From Streptomyces sp. NBC_01429 (GTDB lineage: Bacteria > Actinomycetota > Actinomycetes > Streptomycetales > Streptomycetaceae), in NCBI RefSeq assembly GCF_036231945.1, contig NZ_CP109599.1, positions 5,607,501-5,671,500 on the forward strand: a stretch of 64,000 bases of DNA, given 5' to 3'. The translations under genes were made by a program, and so were the position numbers. Under the pieces are notes generated by a model that searched no databases, was not told where the DNA came from, and saw only the letters and a list, made by a program, of their open reading frames with translations. Numbering within the stretch: position 1 is the first letter of the stretch; each line of letters starts with the position of its first letter. This document shows, in pieces, positions 44,993 to 51,768 of the stretch.

Positions 44993-47389
44993 TCAGCGGG
45001 AGTGGGGATCGCGCGCGACGGTGAACCGCGCGTGCAGCCTCCTCGTGTGGTCGACCTGCCGTACGGGACCGGTCAGGGTGACGGCGGCGGTGAGCCGTAC
45101 GTCCGTACTGGAGGCCGCCAGCCTCAGTTCCAGCGTGCCCGGTTCGACGATCCGGCGCCCGGCCCGGCCGGTGAAGGAGGCGAGGTCGGCCGGGACGCTC
45201 ACCGCGATCCGGGCCCGCTCGTCGGGGGCCAGCGGCAGCCGCAGATAGCCGATCAGGCGCTGGACCGGCTGCACGACCGAGGCGACGGGGTCGTGCAGAT
45301 AGAGCTGGACGACTTCGGTGCCCGCCCGGTGGCCCGTGTTGCGGACGGTGAAGGAGAGTTCCACCGTGCCGTCCGTGCCCGCGCTCCCGTCCGCCGTCAG
45401 CTCCGACCAGGTGAAGGACGTGTACGACAGCCCGTGCCCGAAGGCGAAGTCGGGCGTGGGGTCGATGTTGGAGACGTCGTTGGCCCGGGCCAGCGGAGCG
45501 GCCAGATACGTGGACGGCTGGGTGCCCGCCAGCCGGGGGACGCTCACCGGGAGCCGGCCCGAGGGTTCGACGCGGCCGCTGAGCACCCGCGCCAGGGCCG
45601 GGGCGCCCTCCTGGCCGGGGAAGAAGGACTGCACGACGGCTGCCGCCCGGGTGGCGGCCGGACCCAGCGCGTACGGACGCCCGGCCAGCAGGGTCACCAC
45701 CAGCGGAGTGCCGGTCTCGCTCGCCGTGTCGAGCAGCGTGTTCAGCAACTGGCCCTGGGCGCCGGGAAGTTCCATGCTCTGCGCGTCACAGCCCTCCCCG
45801 CTGGTGCCGCGCCCGAAGAGGCCCGCGCGGTCGCCGAGGGCGGCGATCACGATGTCCGCGTCACGGGCCACCCGTACCGCCTCGGCGAAGCCGTCCGTAC
45901 CACCGGTGTCGATGCCCGTACCGGCCACCGACACCACCTCCGCGCCCGGGAACTCGGCCGCCAACGCCTCGTGCAGTGTGGGAAGTTCGATGCCCACGGG
46001 AGTGGCGGGGTGCTGGGAGCCGACGTGGACGGGGAAGGAGTAGCAGCCGAGCACCGCCGTGGGGGTGCCCGCCTGCGGGCCGATCACCGCGATCCTGGCC
46101 GGGCCGCCCGCCAGCGGCAGCGTCCCGTCGTTGCGCAGCAGGATCACCGAGCGCTCGGCGAGACGGCGGGAGATGTCCCGGTGCGCGCGGGAGTCCAGCG
46201 AGACGGTGCCGCGCAGCGCGGCCGTGTCGTCGGTGTCCTTGCCGGCGAGGGCCGTCGGGCGCGGCGTCCACTCCGGGTCGAGCAGCCCGAGCCCGGCCTT
46301 CTGGGTCAGCACGCGGCGCAGCGCCCGGTCGATCGTCCCGGTCGGCAGCCGCCCGGCGGCCACCGCCTCGCGCAGCGGCTCCCCGAAGGTCTTGACGGTC
46401 GGCAGCTCCACGTCCACGCCCGCGCCGAGCGCCGCCGAGGCCGCCTCGCCCCAGTCGGCCGCCACCCCGTGCAGGGTCTTCAGGAAGCCGATCCCGAAGT
46501 AGTCGGCGACCACGGTGCCCTCGAAGCCCCAGACGTCCCGCAGCAGTCCGGTCAGCAGCTCGTCGCTGGCCGCGCACGGCACGCCGTCGATGTCGTTGTA
46601 CGCGTGCATCACCGACCGTACGCCGCTCTCCCGCACCGCCATCTCGAACGCCGGCAGGATGACATCGGCCAGCTCTCTGGCGCCCATGCTCACCGGCGCG
46701 AGATTGCGGGCGCCGCGCGAGGCGGAGTACCCGGCGAAGTGTTTGAGCGTCGCCACGATCCCGGCGGCCTCCAGGCCCTGGACATAGGCCGTGGCGATCG
46801 TCCCCACCAGATAGGGATCCTCGCCGATGGTCTCCTCGACCCGCCCCCAGCGCGCGTCGCGCACCACGTCGAGCACGGGGGCCAGCCCCTGGTGCAGCCC
46901 CACCGACCGCATGTCGCGGCCGATCGCGCCCGCCATCTCCCGCACCAGCCCGGGATCGAAGGCGGCGCCCCAGGACAGCGGGACGGGGTACGTGGTCGCT
47001 CCCCACGCCGCGAAGCCCGCGAGGCACTCGTCGTGGGCCATCGCCGGGATCCCGAAGCGGCTCGCCGCGACGATGCGTTCCTGCGTACGCATCAGGGACA
47101 GCGCGCCCAGCGCCGGATCGACGGGCACCGTACCGAACGGGCGGGTCAACTGGCCCAGTCCGTGGGGGAGAAGCTCGTCCAGCGTGGGCGGCGCCTCCAT
47201 CTCGTGCTGGTGCGGGGCGACTTCGGCACCGTCGGCGGACGCGCCGGCCCACAGTCCGTACAGCTGGGCGAGCTTCTCCTCCGTGGTCATGGCGGAGATC
47301 AGTTCCTCGACGCGCCGGGCCCGTGCGGCGGCGGTGCTGCCGGTCGGCGCGGTGGTGGTGCTGGTGGTGGTGCTTGTTCGGGTGCTCAT
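44993..47389 (-). CDS. Glycoside hydrolase family 3 enzyme of the importer operon (beta-glucosidase/beta-xylosidase type)
   Basis: 798 residues from ATG 47389; a GTG at 47401 overlapping the permease stop is possible and has GGAGG but too close. GH3 N-terminal barrel: ARRVEELISAMTTEEKLAQL, TLKHFAGYSASRGARN, MHAYNDIDGVPC and the nucleophile region GTVVADYFGIGFLK. The C-terminal sandwich has RIAVIGPQAGTPTAVLG and VTLLAGRPYALGP, then a fibronectin type III-like tail. No signal peptide, so it acts on imported oligosaccharides inside the cell. Gene order SBP-permease-permease-GH3 with LacI resembles bxlEFGA-type xylo-oligosaccharide operons, but xylan specificity is only inferred. Confidence 0.92.
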   Translation of the reverse strand: MSTRTSTTTSTTTAPTGSTAAARARRVEELISAMTTEEKLAQLYGLWAGASADGAEVAPHQHEMEAPPTLDELLPHGLGQLTRPFGTVPVDPALGALSLMRTQERIVAASRFGIPAMAHDECLAGFAAWGATTYPVPLSWGAAFDPGLVREMAGAIGRDMRSVGLHQGLAPVLDVVRDARWGRVEETIGEDPYLVGTIATAYVQGLEAAGIVATLKHFAGYSASRGARNLAPVSMGARELADVILPAFEMAVRESGVRSVMHAYNDIDGVPCAASDELLTGLLRDVWGFEGTVVADYFGIGFLKTLHGVAADWGEAASAALGAGVDVELPTVKTFGEPLREAVAAGRLPTGTIDRALRRVLTQKAGLGLLDPEWTPRPTALAGKDTDDTAALRGTVSLDSRAHRDISRRLAERSVILLRNDGTLPLAGGPARIAVIGPQAGTPTAVLGCYSFPVHVGSQHPATPVGIELPTLHEALAAEFPGAEVVSVAGTGIDTGGTDGFAEAVRVARDADIVIAALGDRAGLFGRGTSGEGCDAQSMELPGAQGQLLNTLLDTASETGTPLVVTLLAGRPYALGPAATRAAAVVQSFFPGQEGAPALARVLSGRVEPSGRLPVSVPRLAGTQPSTYLAAPLARANDVSNIDPTPDFAFGHGLSYTSFTWSELTADGSAGTDGTVELSFTVRNTGHRAGTEVVQLYLHDPVASVVQPVQRLIGYLRLPLAPDERARIAVSVPADLASFTGRAGRRIVEPGTLELRLAASSTDVRLTAAVTLTGPVRQVDHTRRLHARFTVARDPHSR

Positions 47390-47397
47390 GTGGGCGA

Positions 47398-48297
47398 TCA
47401 CTTTCCTCCGACCCCCATGAGCCCCTGGACCAGGGCACGGCGGGCGAACAGGTAGACGAGCAGGACGGGCACCGTGGACAGGACCACGGCCGCCAGCAGA
47501 CCGGGGATGTCGATCCCGTGCTCGGTCTGGAAGTTGTACAGCCCGAGGGTGAGCACCTTGGTCTCCTCGGACTGGGTGAGCACGAGCGGGAACAGGAAGC
47601 CGTTCCACGCCTGGAGCGCGGAGAACACCACGATGGTCGCCAGCCCGCCCCGGGACAGCGGGACGACGAGCTGGAAGAAGACGCGGCGGGTGGTGGCGCC
47701 GTCGATGGCCATGGCCTCGAACAGCTCGCCGGTGATGTCGCGCATGGTGCCGGTGAGGATGAGCGCGCAGACGGGCAGACAGAACGCGGCCGTCGGCAGG
47801 ATGACGCCGATGAGGTTGTCGTAGAGCCCGGCCTTGCTGATCACGTAGAACATCGGGACGATCACGGCCTGGGCCGGGATCGCCAGCCCCAGCAGAAAGA
47901 GCCGGAAGATCCGGACACTGCCCCGGCTCCGGCTCCGGACGATCGAGAAGGCCAGCGGCGGGACGAGCAGCAGCACGATCCCGACCACACTGGCGGTGAC
48001 GATCAGGGTGTTGAGGAAGTAGAGGCCGAAGCCGTTGGAGAAGTCCTGCGTGTAGTTGGAGAGCGAGAAGGACCGGGGCAACGAGAGCGGCCCGTTCGTG
48101 CTGTACTCGATACGGCTCTGGACGGTCGCGCCGAGCATCACGTACAGCGGGAACGCGACCAGGCCGAGCCAGAGCAGGGCACCGAGCCCCGCGAGATAGT
48201 TGGGCCGCCCCTTCGTGACGGACCGCCTCTTCGTGTTCGTCGCGGACCGCCTCTCCGTGGCCGGCCCGGCCTCGGGAGCGGGCGTACGGCGCGTCAC
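47398..48297 (-). CDS. Carbohydrate ABC transporter permease (MalG-type)
   Basis: 299 residues, GTG overlapping the stop of the preceding permease (GTGA). About six membrane segments; the cytoplasmic EAA loop that contacts the ATPase is ELFEAMAIDGATTRRVFFQLVVPLSRGGLATIVVF. The N-terminal 30 residues are basic and repetitive (RRSATNTKRRSVTK). It forms the channel with the other permease. The ATPase gene is absent here; Streptomyces often uses a shared MsiK-type ATPase for such importers. Confidence 0.93.
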   Translation of the reverse strand: MTRRTPAPEAGPATERRSATNTKRRSVTKGRPNYLAGLGALLWLGLVAFPLYVMLGATVQSRIEYSTNGPLSLPRSFSLSNYTQDFSNGFGLYFLNTLIVTASVVGIVLLLVPPLAFSIVRSRSRGSVRIFRLFLLGLAIPAQAVIVPMFYVISKAGLYDNLIGVILPTAAFCLPVCALILTGTMRDITGELFEAMAIDGATTRRVFFQLVVPLSRGGLATIVVFSALQAWNGFLFPLVLTQSEETKVLTLGLYNFQTEHGIDIPGLLAAVVLSTVPVLLVYLFARRALVQGLMGVGGK

Positions 48298-49241
48298 ATG
48301 CCCTCCTTCGTGCCGGCCATCTTGTCGTAGCCCGAGATCCGCACCACGATCAGCGAGATGACCGTGGCCACCACGACCAGCAGCAGCGCGATGGCCGCGC
48401 CCTGGCCGAAGTCGAACTCCCTGAAGGCCTTCTGGTACATGTAGTAGGCGCTGATGCTGGTGTCCGTACCGGGGCCGCCCTGCGTCAGGATCAGTACGGT
48501 GTCGAAGGTGGTGAGCCCGCCGACCACCATGAGGATCACCGACGTGATGACCGAGTTGCGCAGCTGCGGCAGCGTGATGTGGAAGAACCGCCGCACCCGG
48601 CCCGCCCCGTCGATCGCCGCCGCCTGGTAGAGCACCTCGGGGATCGCGCGCGCCGCGCCCTGGTAGATCAGCGCGTGGAACGGGGTGAACTGCCAGGTCG
48701 CCACCAGGACGAGCACCGAGATCGCCCCGGTGCGCGAGCCCAGCAGATTGCCGTCCCCGAAGAGCCAGCGCGCCTGCGCCGGCACCCCGAAGTTGGGGTC
48801 GAGCAGCGCCCGCCACAGCACGGAGACGGCCGTGGCGGACAGCAGCAGGGGGACGAAGAAGACCGCCGACAGCACGGCCCGGTTGCGCTGCCGGCCGGCC
48901 GCCCAGACCCCGAGCAGGATGGCCAGGGGCGTCTGGGTGACCACGCCCAGACCGGTGAGCAGCACACTGAGCCAGAGACTCTTGATCATCACCGGGTCGT
49001 GGAGCAGCCCGGACCAGTTGTCGAGGCCCGCGAACCGGGGCGCCTCAAGGCCGTTCCAGCTCGCGAAGGACAACACGGCGACGAGTACGAGCGGGACGAT
49101 CGCGAACAGGGTGAAGAACAGCGCGGCGGGCAGGGCCCAGCCGATCCCCGGGCGGGCGACCGTATGGGCGGAGGGGCCCCGGCCCGTCCGGGGGCGCTGC
49201 CGCTGCCGTTCGCCTTCCACCGGAGTGGTGAGAACAACCAT
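48294..49241 (-). CDS. Carbohydrate ABC transporter permease (MalF-type)
   Basis: 315 residues from ATG 49241, with a GTG at 49259 also in frame. Six hydrophobic segments, with the first at ALPAALFFTLFAIVPLVLVAVLSF. The EAA loop is EVLYQAAAIDGAGRVRRFFHITLPQLRNSVIT. LTQGGPGTDTSISAYYMYQKAF is typical for sugar permeases. It is directly after the substrate-binding protein gene (stop 49256) and translationally coupled to the next permease. Confidence 0.93.
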   Translation of the reverse strand: MVVLTTPVEGERQRQRPRTGRGPSAHTVARPGIGWALPAALFFTLFAIVPLVLVAVLSFASWNGLEAPRFAGLDNWSGLLHDPVMIKSLWLSVLLTGLGVVTQTPLAILLGVWAAGRQRNRAVLSAVFFVPLLLSATAVSVLWRALLDPNFGVPAQARWLFGDGNLLGSRTGAISVLVLVATWQFTPFHALIYQGAARAIPEVLYQAAAIDGAGRVRRFFHITLPQLRNSVITSVILMVVGGLTTFDTVLILTQGGPGTDTSISAYYMYQKAFREFDFGQGAAIALLLVVVATVISLIVVRISGYDKMAGTKEGM

Positions 49242-49255
49242 GGCGGACGTCACTC

Positions 49256-50554
49256 TCACTCGGTGGACAGGGCCTGCATGGCCTTGATGAAGGCGTCCGC
49301 GTCGATGGAGCCGTTGAAGAACTGCTGGATGGCCTGCATCATCGGGGCGCTGGCGCCCGGCGGGTACGCCTGGTCCCAGGACAGCTGGAACGAGGTGGCC
49401 TTGTCGACCAGGTCGAACTGGTACTTCAGGTAGTCCGGGTTGTCGGCCGAGTCCAGGAACTTCACGGTGTTGGTCGTGGTGGGCAGGTTGCCGATGGCCA
49501 GCTGCGCCTTGACGAACTCGTCGGAGTACATGAGCTTGAGGAACTCGCCGATCGCGTCCGCGTGCTTGGTCTTCTTCAGCACCGAGTAGAAGTTGTTCGT
49601 GTTCCCGACGATGTCGGCCGGATCGCCCTTGCCCCCCTCGACGTTGGGGAAGCCGGTGTAGCCGAGGTCCTTCGCCGCGAAGTCGGGGTTGAGTTCCCGC
49701 TGCGTGGAGTACGCCCAGGACCCCATCAGCTCGAATCCGGCCTTGCCGGTGCTGAGCAGTGCGGGGGAGCCGTTGTCGGTGTACTTCACCGAGTCGTAGT
49801 TGGTGCCGAACGCGCCCGCGTCGACCAGCTCCTTGAGCGTGCTCAGCGCCTTCCTGCTCTCCGCGCTCTCCCAGGCCGCCTTGTCGCCCGCGATCGCCTT
49901 CTTGAACAGGTCGGGACCGGCCACCCGGTCGTACAGGTACTCGAACCACATCAGCGTCGGCCACTTGTCGGCGCCGCCCAGCGCGATCGGGGTGACGCCC
50001 TTGGCCTTGAGCTTCTTCACCGCGTCGAGCAGTTCGTCCCAGGTCTTCGGTGTCGTCGCCCCGGCGTCCGCGAGCACCTTCTTGTTGTTGAACAGCAGGA
50101 CGGGCTGGGTGCCGCGCATCGGGACGCCGTACGCCTTCCCGTCCACCACAGCCGTGTTGAAGACGGACGGCAGGAACTTCGACTTCAGCTCCGGGTTCTT
50201 GGCTATCAGGTCGTCGAGCGGCAGCAGCAGGTTCGCCTTGACGAACGGCTGGATGGAGCCGCCGCCCCAGTTGAAGAAGACGTCGGGCGCCTGCGGGGTG
50301 GAGATGGTCGTCTGGAGCTTCTTCTGGTAGTCGGCCCCGGGGACGGTGTCCAGGACCGCCTTGACCTTGGAGGTCTTGTTGAAGGTCTCGACGATCCGCT
50401 TCTCCACCTTGTTCGTGGCGTCGCCGTAGACCAGTACGTGGAACTCCCCGTCCCCACCCGAGGAGCTGCCGCCACCGCCGCAGGCCGCCAGGCTCAGCCC
50501 GAGGGCGAGCGTGACGCCGGCGGCGACAGTTCGAGAAAACCGTGCACGAATCAT
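49256..50554 (-). CDS. Sugar-binding lipoprotein of ABC importer
   Basis: 432 residues. Lipobox LAAC (Cys 25), followed by a Gly/Ser linker and an SBP_bac_1 domain: FHVLVYGDATNKVEKRIVETFNKTSKVKAVLDTVPG, APDVFFNWGGGSIQPFV and PTLMWFEYLYDRVAGPDLF. It binds an oligosaccharide outside the membrane and hands it to the permeases. First gene of the importer operon, with GAGAGG before ATG 50554. Its promoter region carries several LacI-type operators (50570-50639). Confidence 0.95.
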   Translation of the reverse strand: MIRARFSRTVAAGVTLALGLSLAACGGGGSSSGGDGEFHVLVYGDATNKVEKRIVETFNKTSKVKAVLDTVPGADYQKKLQTTISTPQAPDVFFNWGGGSIQPFVKANLLLPLDDLIAKNPELKSKFLPSVFNTAVVDGKAYGVPMRGTQPVLLFNNKKVLADAGATTPKTWDELLDAVKKLKAKGVTPIALGGADKWPTLMWFEYLYDRVAGPDLFKKAIAGDKAAWESAESRKALSTLKELVDAGAFGTNYDSVKYTDNGSPALLSTGKAGFELMGSWAYSTQRELNPDFAAKDLGYTGFPNVEGGKGDPADIVGNTNNFYSVLKKTKHADAIGEFLKLMYSDEFVKAQLAIGNLPTTTNTVKFLDSADNPDYLKYQFDLVDKATSFQLSWDQAYPPGASAPMMQAIQQFFNGSIDADAFIKAMQALSTE

Positions 50555-50569
50555 CTTCGATCGACCTCT

Positions 50570-50639
50570 CGAAAGTATCGGCATCATTGCCGAAAGTATC
50601 TGGCGAGTGACCGTAGGACTCTCCCTCCGAGCGGTCAAC
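50570..50639 (-). promoter_or_regulatory. Promoter and operators of the sugar importer operon
   Basis: Minus-strand -35 TTGACC (50634-50639) and -10 TACGGT (50611-50616) with a 17-base spacer. Downstream of the -10 are two direct repeats of GATACTTTCG (minus strand; 50591-50600 and 50570-50579), 21 bases apart, and an inverted TCGGCA-TCAT-TGCCGA between them. This placement would block RNA polymerase when the LacI repressor binds. Confidence 0.75.
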
Positions 50640-50671
50640 AGTGCGGTCGTCGCGCTGCCAAACCGTTACCG

Positions 50672-50709
50672 ACTTTCGGCGGACATCCAGGGCGCCTATC
50701 CTTCAGCCC
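50672..50709 (+). promoter_or_regulatory. LacI autoregulated, leaderless promoter
   Basis: The word ACTTTCGGC at 50672-50680 is identical to part of the importer operator. It overlaps a -35 TTTCGG (50674-50679). The -10 TATCCT (50697-50702) is 17 bases on and seven bases before the ATG at 50710, so the mRNA likely has no leader. Confidence 0.65.
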
Positions 50710-51768
50710 ATGCGTGATGAGACGAGTGCGGGCCGGGTCACCCTGGCCCAGGTGGCTTCGCAGGCAGGGGTATCTCTTTCGACAGTTTCGAAAGTCCTCA
50801 ACGGGCGTCCCGATGTCTCCGCGCCGACCCGGGTCAAGGTCGAGGAGCTGCTCGACACCCACGGCTACCGCCGCTCCACGCCCGCCGCCCCCGAGGCGCC
50901 GCTCATCGAGATCGTCTTCCACGAGCTGGACAGCACCTGGTCGATGGAGCTGATCCGGGGCGTCCAGAACGTCGCGAAGGAGACCGGCCTCAGCGTCGTC
51001 CTCACCGAGACCGGCACCCGGCACTCCCCGGGGGCCGACTGGGTCGAGGGCGTTCTGCGCCGCCGTCCGCTCGGTGTGGTCCTCGTCTTCTCCACGCTCC
51101 CCGACGACCTCAAGAAGAAGCTCTGGTCGCGCGCCATCCCGTTCGTCATCATCGACCCGGCGGGCGACCCGGAACCCGACGTGCCGTCCGTCGGCTCCGC
51201 CAACTGGGCCGGCGGGCTCGCCGCCACCCGCCACCTCATCGAACTCGGCCACCGCAGAGTCGCCGTCATCACCGGCCCCGAGGACATGCTCTGCTCGCTG
51301 GCCCGGCTGGACGGCTTCCGCTCGGCCATGGGCATGGCGGGCCTGGAGACCGACCCGGCGCTGGTGCGCTTCGGCGACTTCCACGTACGGTCCGGCCACG
51401 CCCACGCCATGGAACTCCTGCGGGCCGACGACCGCCCGACCGCCGTCTTCGCGGGCAGCGACCTCCAGGCGCTGGGCGTCCTGGAGGCGGCCCGCGTGCT
51501 GGGGCTGCGCATCCCGGAGGACCTCTCGGTCGTCGGATACGACGACATCCCCCTCGCCCAGTGGTCCAGCCCCGCCCTCACCACCGTCCACCAGCCCCTC
51601 GTCGAGATGGCCGAGGAGGCCGCCCGGATGCTGCTGCGGCTGCGCCGGGAGGACCGCTCCGACCACGCCGACCGGGCCGAACAGGCCGACACCCGGATCG
51701 AGTTCGGCACCCGACTGGTCGTCAGGGACAGTACGGCGCGGCCGGCGGCGGGCGGGGCCGCGCGGTAG
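50710..51768 (+). CDS. LacI family repressor of the sugar importer
   Basis: 352 residues from ATG 50710. The helix-turn-helix is VTLAQVASQAGVSLSTVSKVLNGRPDVSAPTRVKV (about 11-45). The sugar-binding domain has HELDSTWSMELIRGVQNVAKETG, the LGHRRVAVITGPEDM motif and VVGYDDIPLAQWSSPALTTVHQP near the end. It is divergent from the importer operon and should release its operators on binding an imported sugar. It has no promoter far upstream; the -10 sits at the start codon. The DNA for its helix-turn-helix holds a further inverted CTTTCG/CGAAAG. Confidence 0.93.
   Translation: MRDETSAGRVTLAQVASQAGVSLSTVSKVLNGRPDVSAPTRVKVEELLDTHGYRRSTPAAPEAPLIEIVFHELDSTWSMELIRGVQNVAKETGLSVVLTETGTRHSPGADWVEGVLRRRPLGVVLVFSTLPDDLKKKLWSRAIPFVIIDPAGDPEPDVPSVGSANWAGGLAATRHLIELGHRRVAVITGPEDMLCSLARLDGFRSAMGMAGLETDPALVRFGDFHVRSGHAHAMELLRADDRPTAVFAGSDLQALGVLEAARVLGLRIPEDLSVVGYDDIPLAQWSSPALTTVHQPLVEMAEEAARMLLRLRREDRSDHADRAEQADTRIEFGTRLVVRDSTARPAAGGAAR
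50776..50794. promoter_or_regulatory. Intragenic operator-like inverted repeat in the LacI gene
   Basis: CTTTCG-N7-CGAAAG at 50776-50794, in the codons for SLSTVSKV. The codons used (aca, gtt, aaa) are rare for this genome, consistent with selection on DNA sequence as well as protein. Confidence 0.5.

Follow-up and report, generated by a model that had tools for sequence, protein, structure and literature searches.

From sequence comparison we consider it likely that bxlR, a LacI-family repressor gene of Streptomyces sp. NBC_01429, carries a predicted operator for its own product (Oi) in the codons of the recognition helix, that selection on synonymous positions would preserve this site, and that repression of the importer operon and of bxlR itself would most likely involve a loop between Oi and the upstream boxes O1/O1'. 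The window, that is, the whole stretch of 64,000 nucleotides analysed, spans positions 5607501-5671500 of the 8.08-Mb genome. The original prediction described a LacI regulon with operators on both promoters and inside the LacI gene; comparison supports the operators at the importer promoter and inside the gene well, but not the one on the bxlR -35 element.

The bxl locus and its upstream boxes

Gene order and protein families identify the locus as a probable Streptomyces-type xylobiose-uptake cluster, bxlEFG-bxlA, divergent from a gene for a LacI-family repressor, bxlR, which adjoins it as in a BxlR-type regulon. The repressor (352 amino acids; 50710..51768, plus strand) has Pfam LacI and periplasmic-binding-protein-like domains in its translation, and its nearest relatives are from Streptomyces, with Streptomyces corynorhini at 96% identity. 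The importer and GH3 genes run on the minus strand from 50554 down to 44993. They encode a bxlE-like sugar-binding protein (49256..50554; Pfam SBP_bac_1), bxlF-like and bxlG-like permeases (48298..49241 and 47398..48300), which match sugar ABC permease families with scores below the curated cut-offs, and a bxlA-like GH3 beta-xylosidase (44993..47386). The GH3 enzyme has Pfam GH3 domains and passes NF052329, a beta-xylosidase/alpha-L-arabinosidase family, with 1143 bits against a cut-off of 1050.

The available parts of two papers describe a BxlR regulon for Streptomyces, in S. thermoviolaceus, S. lividans and SirexAA-E (PMC4743123, PMC12772271). The naming of the bxl genes follows PMC12772271, and we named the regulator BxlR because of the gene set and the published S. 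thermoviolaceus system (PMC4743123). As given in these parts, the BxlR box is CGAAACTTTCG, a xylanase promoter used for protein production is a BxlR target (PMC4743123), and CGAANNTTTCG lies upstream of one bxlR homologue and two xylanase genes (PMC12772271).

A box of this kind, O1 (CGAAAGTATCG, 50570..50580), lies in the leader of the importer operon, with one mismatch to CGAAASTTTCG and a core that is invariant in a 15-sequence alignment. A weaker box, O1' (CGAAAGTATCT, 50591..50601, reading GATACTTTCG on the minus strand), has two mismatches, is located near the likely bxlE transcription start at 21 bp from O1, and has a CCGAAA that is invariant in the same 15 sequences. The probable bxlE promoter (50610..50638, minus strand) was read by eye as TTGACC (50638-50633), 17 nt and TACGGT (50615-50610), both elements of which recur among aligned relatives. 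O1 and O1' are thus the repeats that had been predicted past the importer -10, at or just past the likely transcription start. A probable bxlR -10, TATCCT (50697..50702, plus strand), also read by eye, lies about 8 bp before the ATG, and its TATC is invariant in the 15-sequence alignment. A strict sigma-70 scan of 50540-50830 found no promoter.

The operator that had been proposed to overlap the bxlR -35 (ACTTTCGGC) was rejected as a conserved site, given that the CGACTTTCGG form at 50670-50679 is absent from all 14 aligned close relatives, the nearest included. Next to it, element X (AAACCGTTAC, 50660..50669) is conserved: 72 of 145 loci have it with at most one mismatch. Its distance is 89-94 or 102-103 bp to O1 and mostly 107-111 or 116-121 bp to Oi, and the distance to the bxlR -10 is not fixed.

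Upstream boxes vary among relatives. At nine Streptomyces loci (L018, L019, L026, L028, L030, L031, L035, L040 and L041) they are weak (CGAAACTTTTT, CGAAACTTCCT) or there is none within two mismatches; these loci retain the exact CGACAGTTTCG in bxlR, so that no other BxlR site at these loci would be as good as Oi. In all four Oerskovia loci and some Arthrobacter-type loci, a box occurs about 100 bp (105 in Oerskovia) before the helix codons, and a site like the one proposed at the bxlR -35 therefore does occur elsewhere.

In the genome, CGAAASTTTCG with at most one mismatch is found in 28 places, two of which are 210 bp apart at this locus, which is more than chance. Among the 26 boxes outside the window, for two of which the downstream protein was run against Pfam and the other 24 of which were judged by position, eight fall inside a long GC3-rich frame. 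One of them, CGAAACTTCCG (one mismatch; L141 3996-4006), is 41 bp upstream of the gene for a GH10 xylanase with CBM2, as expected for a BxlR regulon. The only exact CGAAAGTTTCG of the genome (L081 1501-1511) is 147 bp upstream of a gene for an alginate-lyase-like protein (PF05426), which would be an unexpected BxlR target, if true. A second copy of CGACAGTTTCG in a TetR-like reading frame is presumably due to chance.

Codon constraint at the intragenic site

Oi (CGACAGTTTCG, 50780..50790) covers +71 to +81 of the bxlR coding sequence, where codons 24-27, TCG ACA GTT TCG, encode Ser Thr Val Ser. We take these codons, from comparison with LacI, to be those of the recognition helix. Among the synonyms available for this peptide, those used come as close as possible to CGAAAGTTTCG (10 of 11 bases), and the sole mismatch is the C at position 4, which the Thr codon imposes. 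The rarity that had been noted for three triplets of the helix-turn-helix is confirmed: ACA, GTT and AAA account for 2.4%, 2.0% and 3.4% of their own synonyms in five genes of the cluster, site included.

Orthologues were sought with peptides that do not touch the helix, and the best 80 of 128 relatives were taken, giving with the window 71 sequences from Streptomyces or Actinacidiphila and 10 others (4 Oerskovia, 6 Arthrobacter-type). In the 71 Streptomycetaceae orthologues, codon 24 is TCG in 43, CCG in 26 and GCG in 2 (Ser, Pro and Ala), that is, NCG in every case, and codon 27 is TCG in all 71. Codon 25 is ACA in 64 and ACG in 7, and codon 26 is GTT in 69 and GTG in 2. When third-base changes are counted on a protein tree of these 71 sequences, codons 24, 27 and 26 (0, 0 and 1 changes) are the lowest three among 193 fourfold columns, for which the median is 14; this ranking uses the window and the helix-independent relatives, and one that includes L148-L187 and L188-L247 is biased. 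Four other columns share the 5 changes of codon 25. At codon 24 the residue switched three times on the same tree and the codon always ended in CG; bases are therefore kept where the residue is not. Absence of codon conservation was to have counted against the site, and the comparison instead favours an operator at codons 24-27.

Synonymous conservation and the controls below indicate that this operator-like stretch of coding DNA is conserved beyond the need of the protein, and in Streptomyces-type bacteria strong selection at otherwise synonymous positions appears to maintain CGACAGTTTCG. The conserved unit is shorter than the predicted repeat and offset from it. The inverted repeat CTTTCG-N7-CGAAAG is present at 50776-50794 in the helix-turn-helix codons, but the 19-bp repeat was rejected as the operator, as codon 23 CTT and codon 28 AAA occur together in 12 of the 86 genes of the window's group (group A) and conservation of the inner 11-mer is much wider.

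A general habit of LacI genes was rejected for this genome. Its 41 other LacI loci include 37 in which the helix was placed by script, 31 of them with a good score (leaving 10 loci without confident placement), and ACA GTT TCG occurs in none of the 31; a stricter regular expression placed 22 other LacI loci, again none with ACA GTT TCG. Across the genus, a pattern that allows any synonym of TVSKVLNG after NCG matched in 178 of 295 genomes, and among the matches listed nine lack GTT, by reading. A scan of 296 genomes of the class gave 47 peptide-pattern matches, 17 in the genus and 30 outside. Those in the genus have GTT in 17 of 17 and ACA or ACT in 16 of 17, whereas GTT, ACA and ACT occur in 0 of the 30 outside, which are peptide matches and not necessarily BxlR orthologues. 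The helix codons of the four Oerskovia relatives are ACC GTG TCC, and those of the six Arthrobacter-type relatives vary. Five of these six (L074-L076, L078 and L080) share CGAAAGTTGAG, also coding and 54 bp downstream of the Oi position, which may reflect simple conservation of the coding sequence or another kind of half-box within the gene.

Many of the sampled genomes also encode paralogues, which form a group that shares about 58-61% identity with the BxlR of the window; their genes often adjoin importer or GH3 genes. Here, O1 is CGAATGTTTCG and the internal site is mostly CGACTGTTTCG. At position 5, the paralogues have T in 93% of 58 O1 boxes and 47 of 58 Oi, and group A has A in 61 of 61 O1 and 76 of 86 Oi; the patterns by which these loci were collected favour sites of this kind. 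Judging from these counts, the Thr codon of Oi thus tends to agree at this letter with the operator of its own lineage. ACA in 11 of the 58 paralogues is an exception, as are mixed pairs, with a T-type O1 and an A-type Oi at 9 loci and the reverse at 4. The position-5 contrast between the groups may be a single ancestral event.

Operator spacing and the helical repeat

O1 and Oi are 210 bp apart in the window. O1 is found within one mismatch of CGAANNTTTCG at 85 of 111 Streptomycetaceae loci. In this and the other spacing and position-5 counts some genomes may enter twice, through the named and the unnamed locus collections; for the set of 181 records, 26 exact duplicates were removed. The two operators are not both present at every locus: 26 of the 111 are without a good O1, 24 of these keep the exact Oi, and a strong O1 partner is therefore not always available.

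At the 85 loci the spacing clusters at 167, 178-180, 187-188, 197-204, 209-211 and 219-222 bp, with further values of 207, 215, 244, 246 and 279 bp; the spacing and position-5 results draw on biased loci, of which L148-L187 were hand-picked from a list of matches to an NCG-fixing pattern and L188-L247 come from patterns that require exact boxes at both ends. Loci that are off phase with an intact Oi have 173, 204, 214, 244, 246 and 279 bp. Gap-pattern scans of 295 genomes gave 54 matches for spacings of 165-195 bp and 57 for 196-226 bp. As with the paralogue loci, these later spacing data come from patterns demanding intact or near-intact sites, and 103 of the 111 gap-scan spacings fall within 2 bp of a 10.7-bp comb that was fitted to the same data. 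The eight off the comb are 173, 197 (five times), 202 and 214 bp.

The 24 distinct spacings of 160-226 bp with an intact Oi have a periodicity at 10-11.5 bp when compared with random distinct integers (permutation p 0.00015, with neighbouring values that are not independent), and a Rayleigh test on all 25 unique spacings gives only p ~0.06 at 10.5 bp. Of the 31 steps of at least 3 bp inferred on the protein tree, 22 deviate by no more than 1.5 bp from a multiple of 10.5 bp (expected 35%, p 4e-5); these events depend on the tree, in which the outgroup is non-monophyletic, and include L243 at 289 bp, where ties went to the more distant box and the gap scan gives 197. Repeated 21-bp steps may stem partly from tree error or gene transfer.

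The two lineages differ in where length changes. In the paralogous group, 47 of 54 loci have 91-92 bp between O1 and the ATG, and length changes in the stretch from the ATG to the helix, which comprises 25, 27, 32, 35, 36, 39, 42, 43 or 62 codons. Among these in-frame changes in coding length, phase is held to within 1.5 bp in 11 of 13 steps (null 43%, p 0.003). In the window's group, length changes upstream of the ATG instead, and in L012-L014 an insertion and a deletion offset each other such that 210 bp is retained. Phase is thus preserved in two different ways, which suggests that O1 and Oi are the parts that are linked. Where Oi is degraded (CGACGGTTTCG; eight loci), the spacings are 200, 200, 201, 202, 203, 207, 207 and 215 bp, a hint, from few loci, of relaxed phase.

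With these exceptions and with biased sampling, the helical phasing expected of a two-operator loop is found. The DNA looping that had been suggested between promoter and gene is plausible because the spacing tracks the DNA helix in most sampled loci, but it has to be read with the loci that are without a good O1. The phased spacing, with most clusters separated by roughly one helical turn, favours co-operation of O1 and Oi, probably in a loop round both divergent promoters. We put forward more tentatively, as a possibility somewhat short of an even call, that two paralogous BxlR lineages across Streptomycetaceae encode their own operator in the helix codons, and that in one of them the coding length before the helix changes mainly by about 3.5 codons (10.5 bp), so that the DNA helical repeat would set the size of the N-terminal tail in a way that maintains a repression loop.

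Proposed mechanism, alternatives and known systems

Sites, codon constraint and helical spacing in most sampled loci were computed, and from them we infer BxlR binding, looping, the inducer and the direction of regulation as follows. Without inducer (xylobiose, according to published work on relatives), BxlR dimers would occupy O1/O1' over the start region of the importer operon and also Oi, about 70 bp inside bxlR, with both complexes on the same face of the DNA. A loop of about 200 bp (19-20 helical turns) would then most likely enclose both divergent promoters and lead to joint repression of the importer operon and bxlR. Oi may additionally block the bxlR transcript directly, and at loci with a weak O1 it may act alone. 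BxlR is without an obvious LacI-type tetramer helix, as the Pfam match stops at residue 342 of 352 and alignments to LacI structures stop at 313, and a loop like that of GalR and HU is for this reason the nearer model.

The most direct competitor accepts Oi as a real BxlR operator that acts alone, as an autoregulatory roadblock in bxlR with no loop to O1. The location of Oi, about 70 bp past the start codon, would suit a roadblock, as would the exact Oi at 24 of the 26 loci without O1 within one mismatch. However, the phasing of O1 and Oi, including the compensating upstream indels of L012-L014, would be unexpected for independent sites, and we regard the roadblock on its own as rather unlikely.

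The loop reading also has to be set against explanations in which Oi is no BxlR site. Codons 24-27 could be constrained by RNA structure, translational pausing or another DNA-binding protein, and the conserved element X suggests that other proteins may act in the region. Such constraint is improbable, given that the constrained bases are those that form the BxlR box, that codon 24 retains CG across three amino acids, and that the Thr codon tends to match the O1 letter of its paralogue. Chance would require that the conserved TVSK peptide of LacI proteins resembles the operator and that shared ancestry kept the codons; the peptide does set 7 of the 11 bases, and a near match takes just four synonymous choices. 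Other fourfold columns in the same genes and on the same tree changed many times, however, and both the other LacI genes of the genome and same-peptide genes outside Streptomyces use other, GC-ending codons, which makes chance very improbable indeed.

The proposed BxlR operator arrangement has counterparts in Escherichia coli. In the gal operon, GalR dimers bind an upstream operator (OE) and an intragenic operator (OI) and close a loop round the promoters. LacI-family dimers, the pair of upstream and intragenic operators and a promoter-enclosing loop are thus shared, although in bxl the loop is a proposal; unlike Oi, OI lies in a target gene, galE, rather than in the repressor gene, and the spacing is about 114 bp. 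E. coli purR is autoregulated through a second operator inside purR, and so resembles bxlR in having a LacI-family operator in the coding part of the repressor's own gene. It differs in that we know of no overlap with recognition-helix codons and in having no series of helical spacings.

Two more LacI-family operators within coding sequence in E. coli, lac O2 in lacZ and a purB site bound by PurR, are located in target genes, unlike Oi. A survey names such sites, and in its available part fewer than 1% of LacI-family sites lie in coding regions (PMC4052901). The described Streptomyces BxlR regulon is alike in gene set, LacI-type regulator and box (CGAAACTTTCG or CGAANNTTTCG); a site inside bxlR is not mentioned in the available parts of PMC4743123 and PMC12772271. 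A literature search that ran outside most subscription journals and the original S. thermoviolaceus paper, which could mention it, returned no title on an operator inside bxlR and, within the same scope, none on a recognition-helix-codon operator held through two paralogous lineages with helical spacing. Coding operators of the LacI family, rare as they are, and an operator within a repressor gene (purR) are already known, and the predicted overlap with recognition-helix codons is apparently new.

If the proposed loop is correct, DNA binding and not the protein would dictate codon choice and perhaps the length of a protein tail. Because Oi can be abolished by silent changes that leave the repressor unaltered, the loop model is directly testable in Streptomyces. 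In the available part of one survey of the LacI family, coding positions were covered only to +50 (PMC2978694), short of Oi at +71 to +81; operator surveys limited to intergenic DNA can thus miss such sites.
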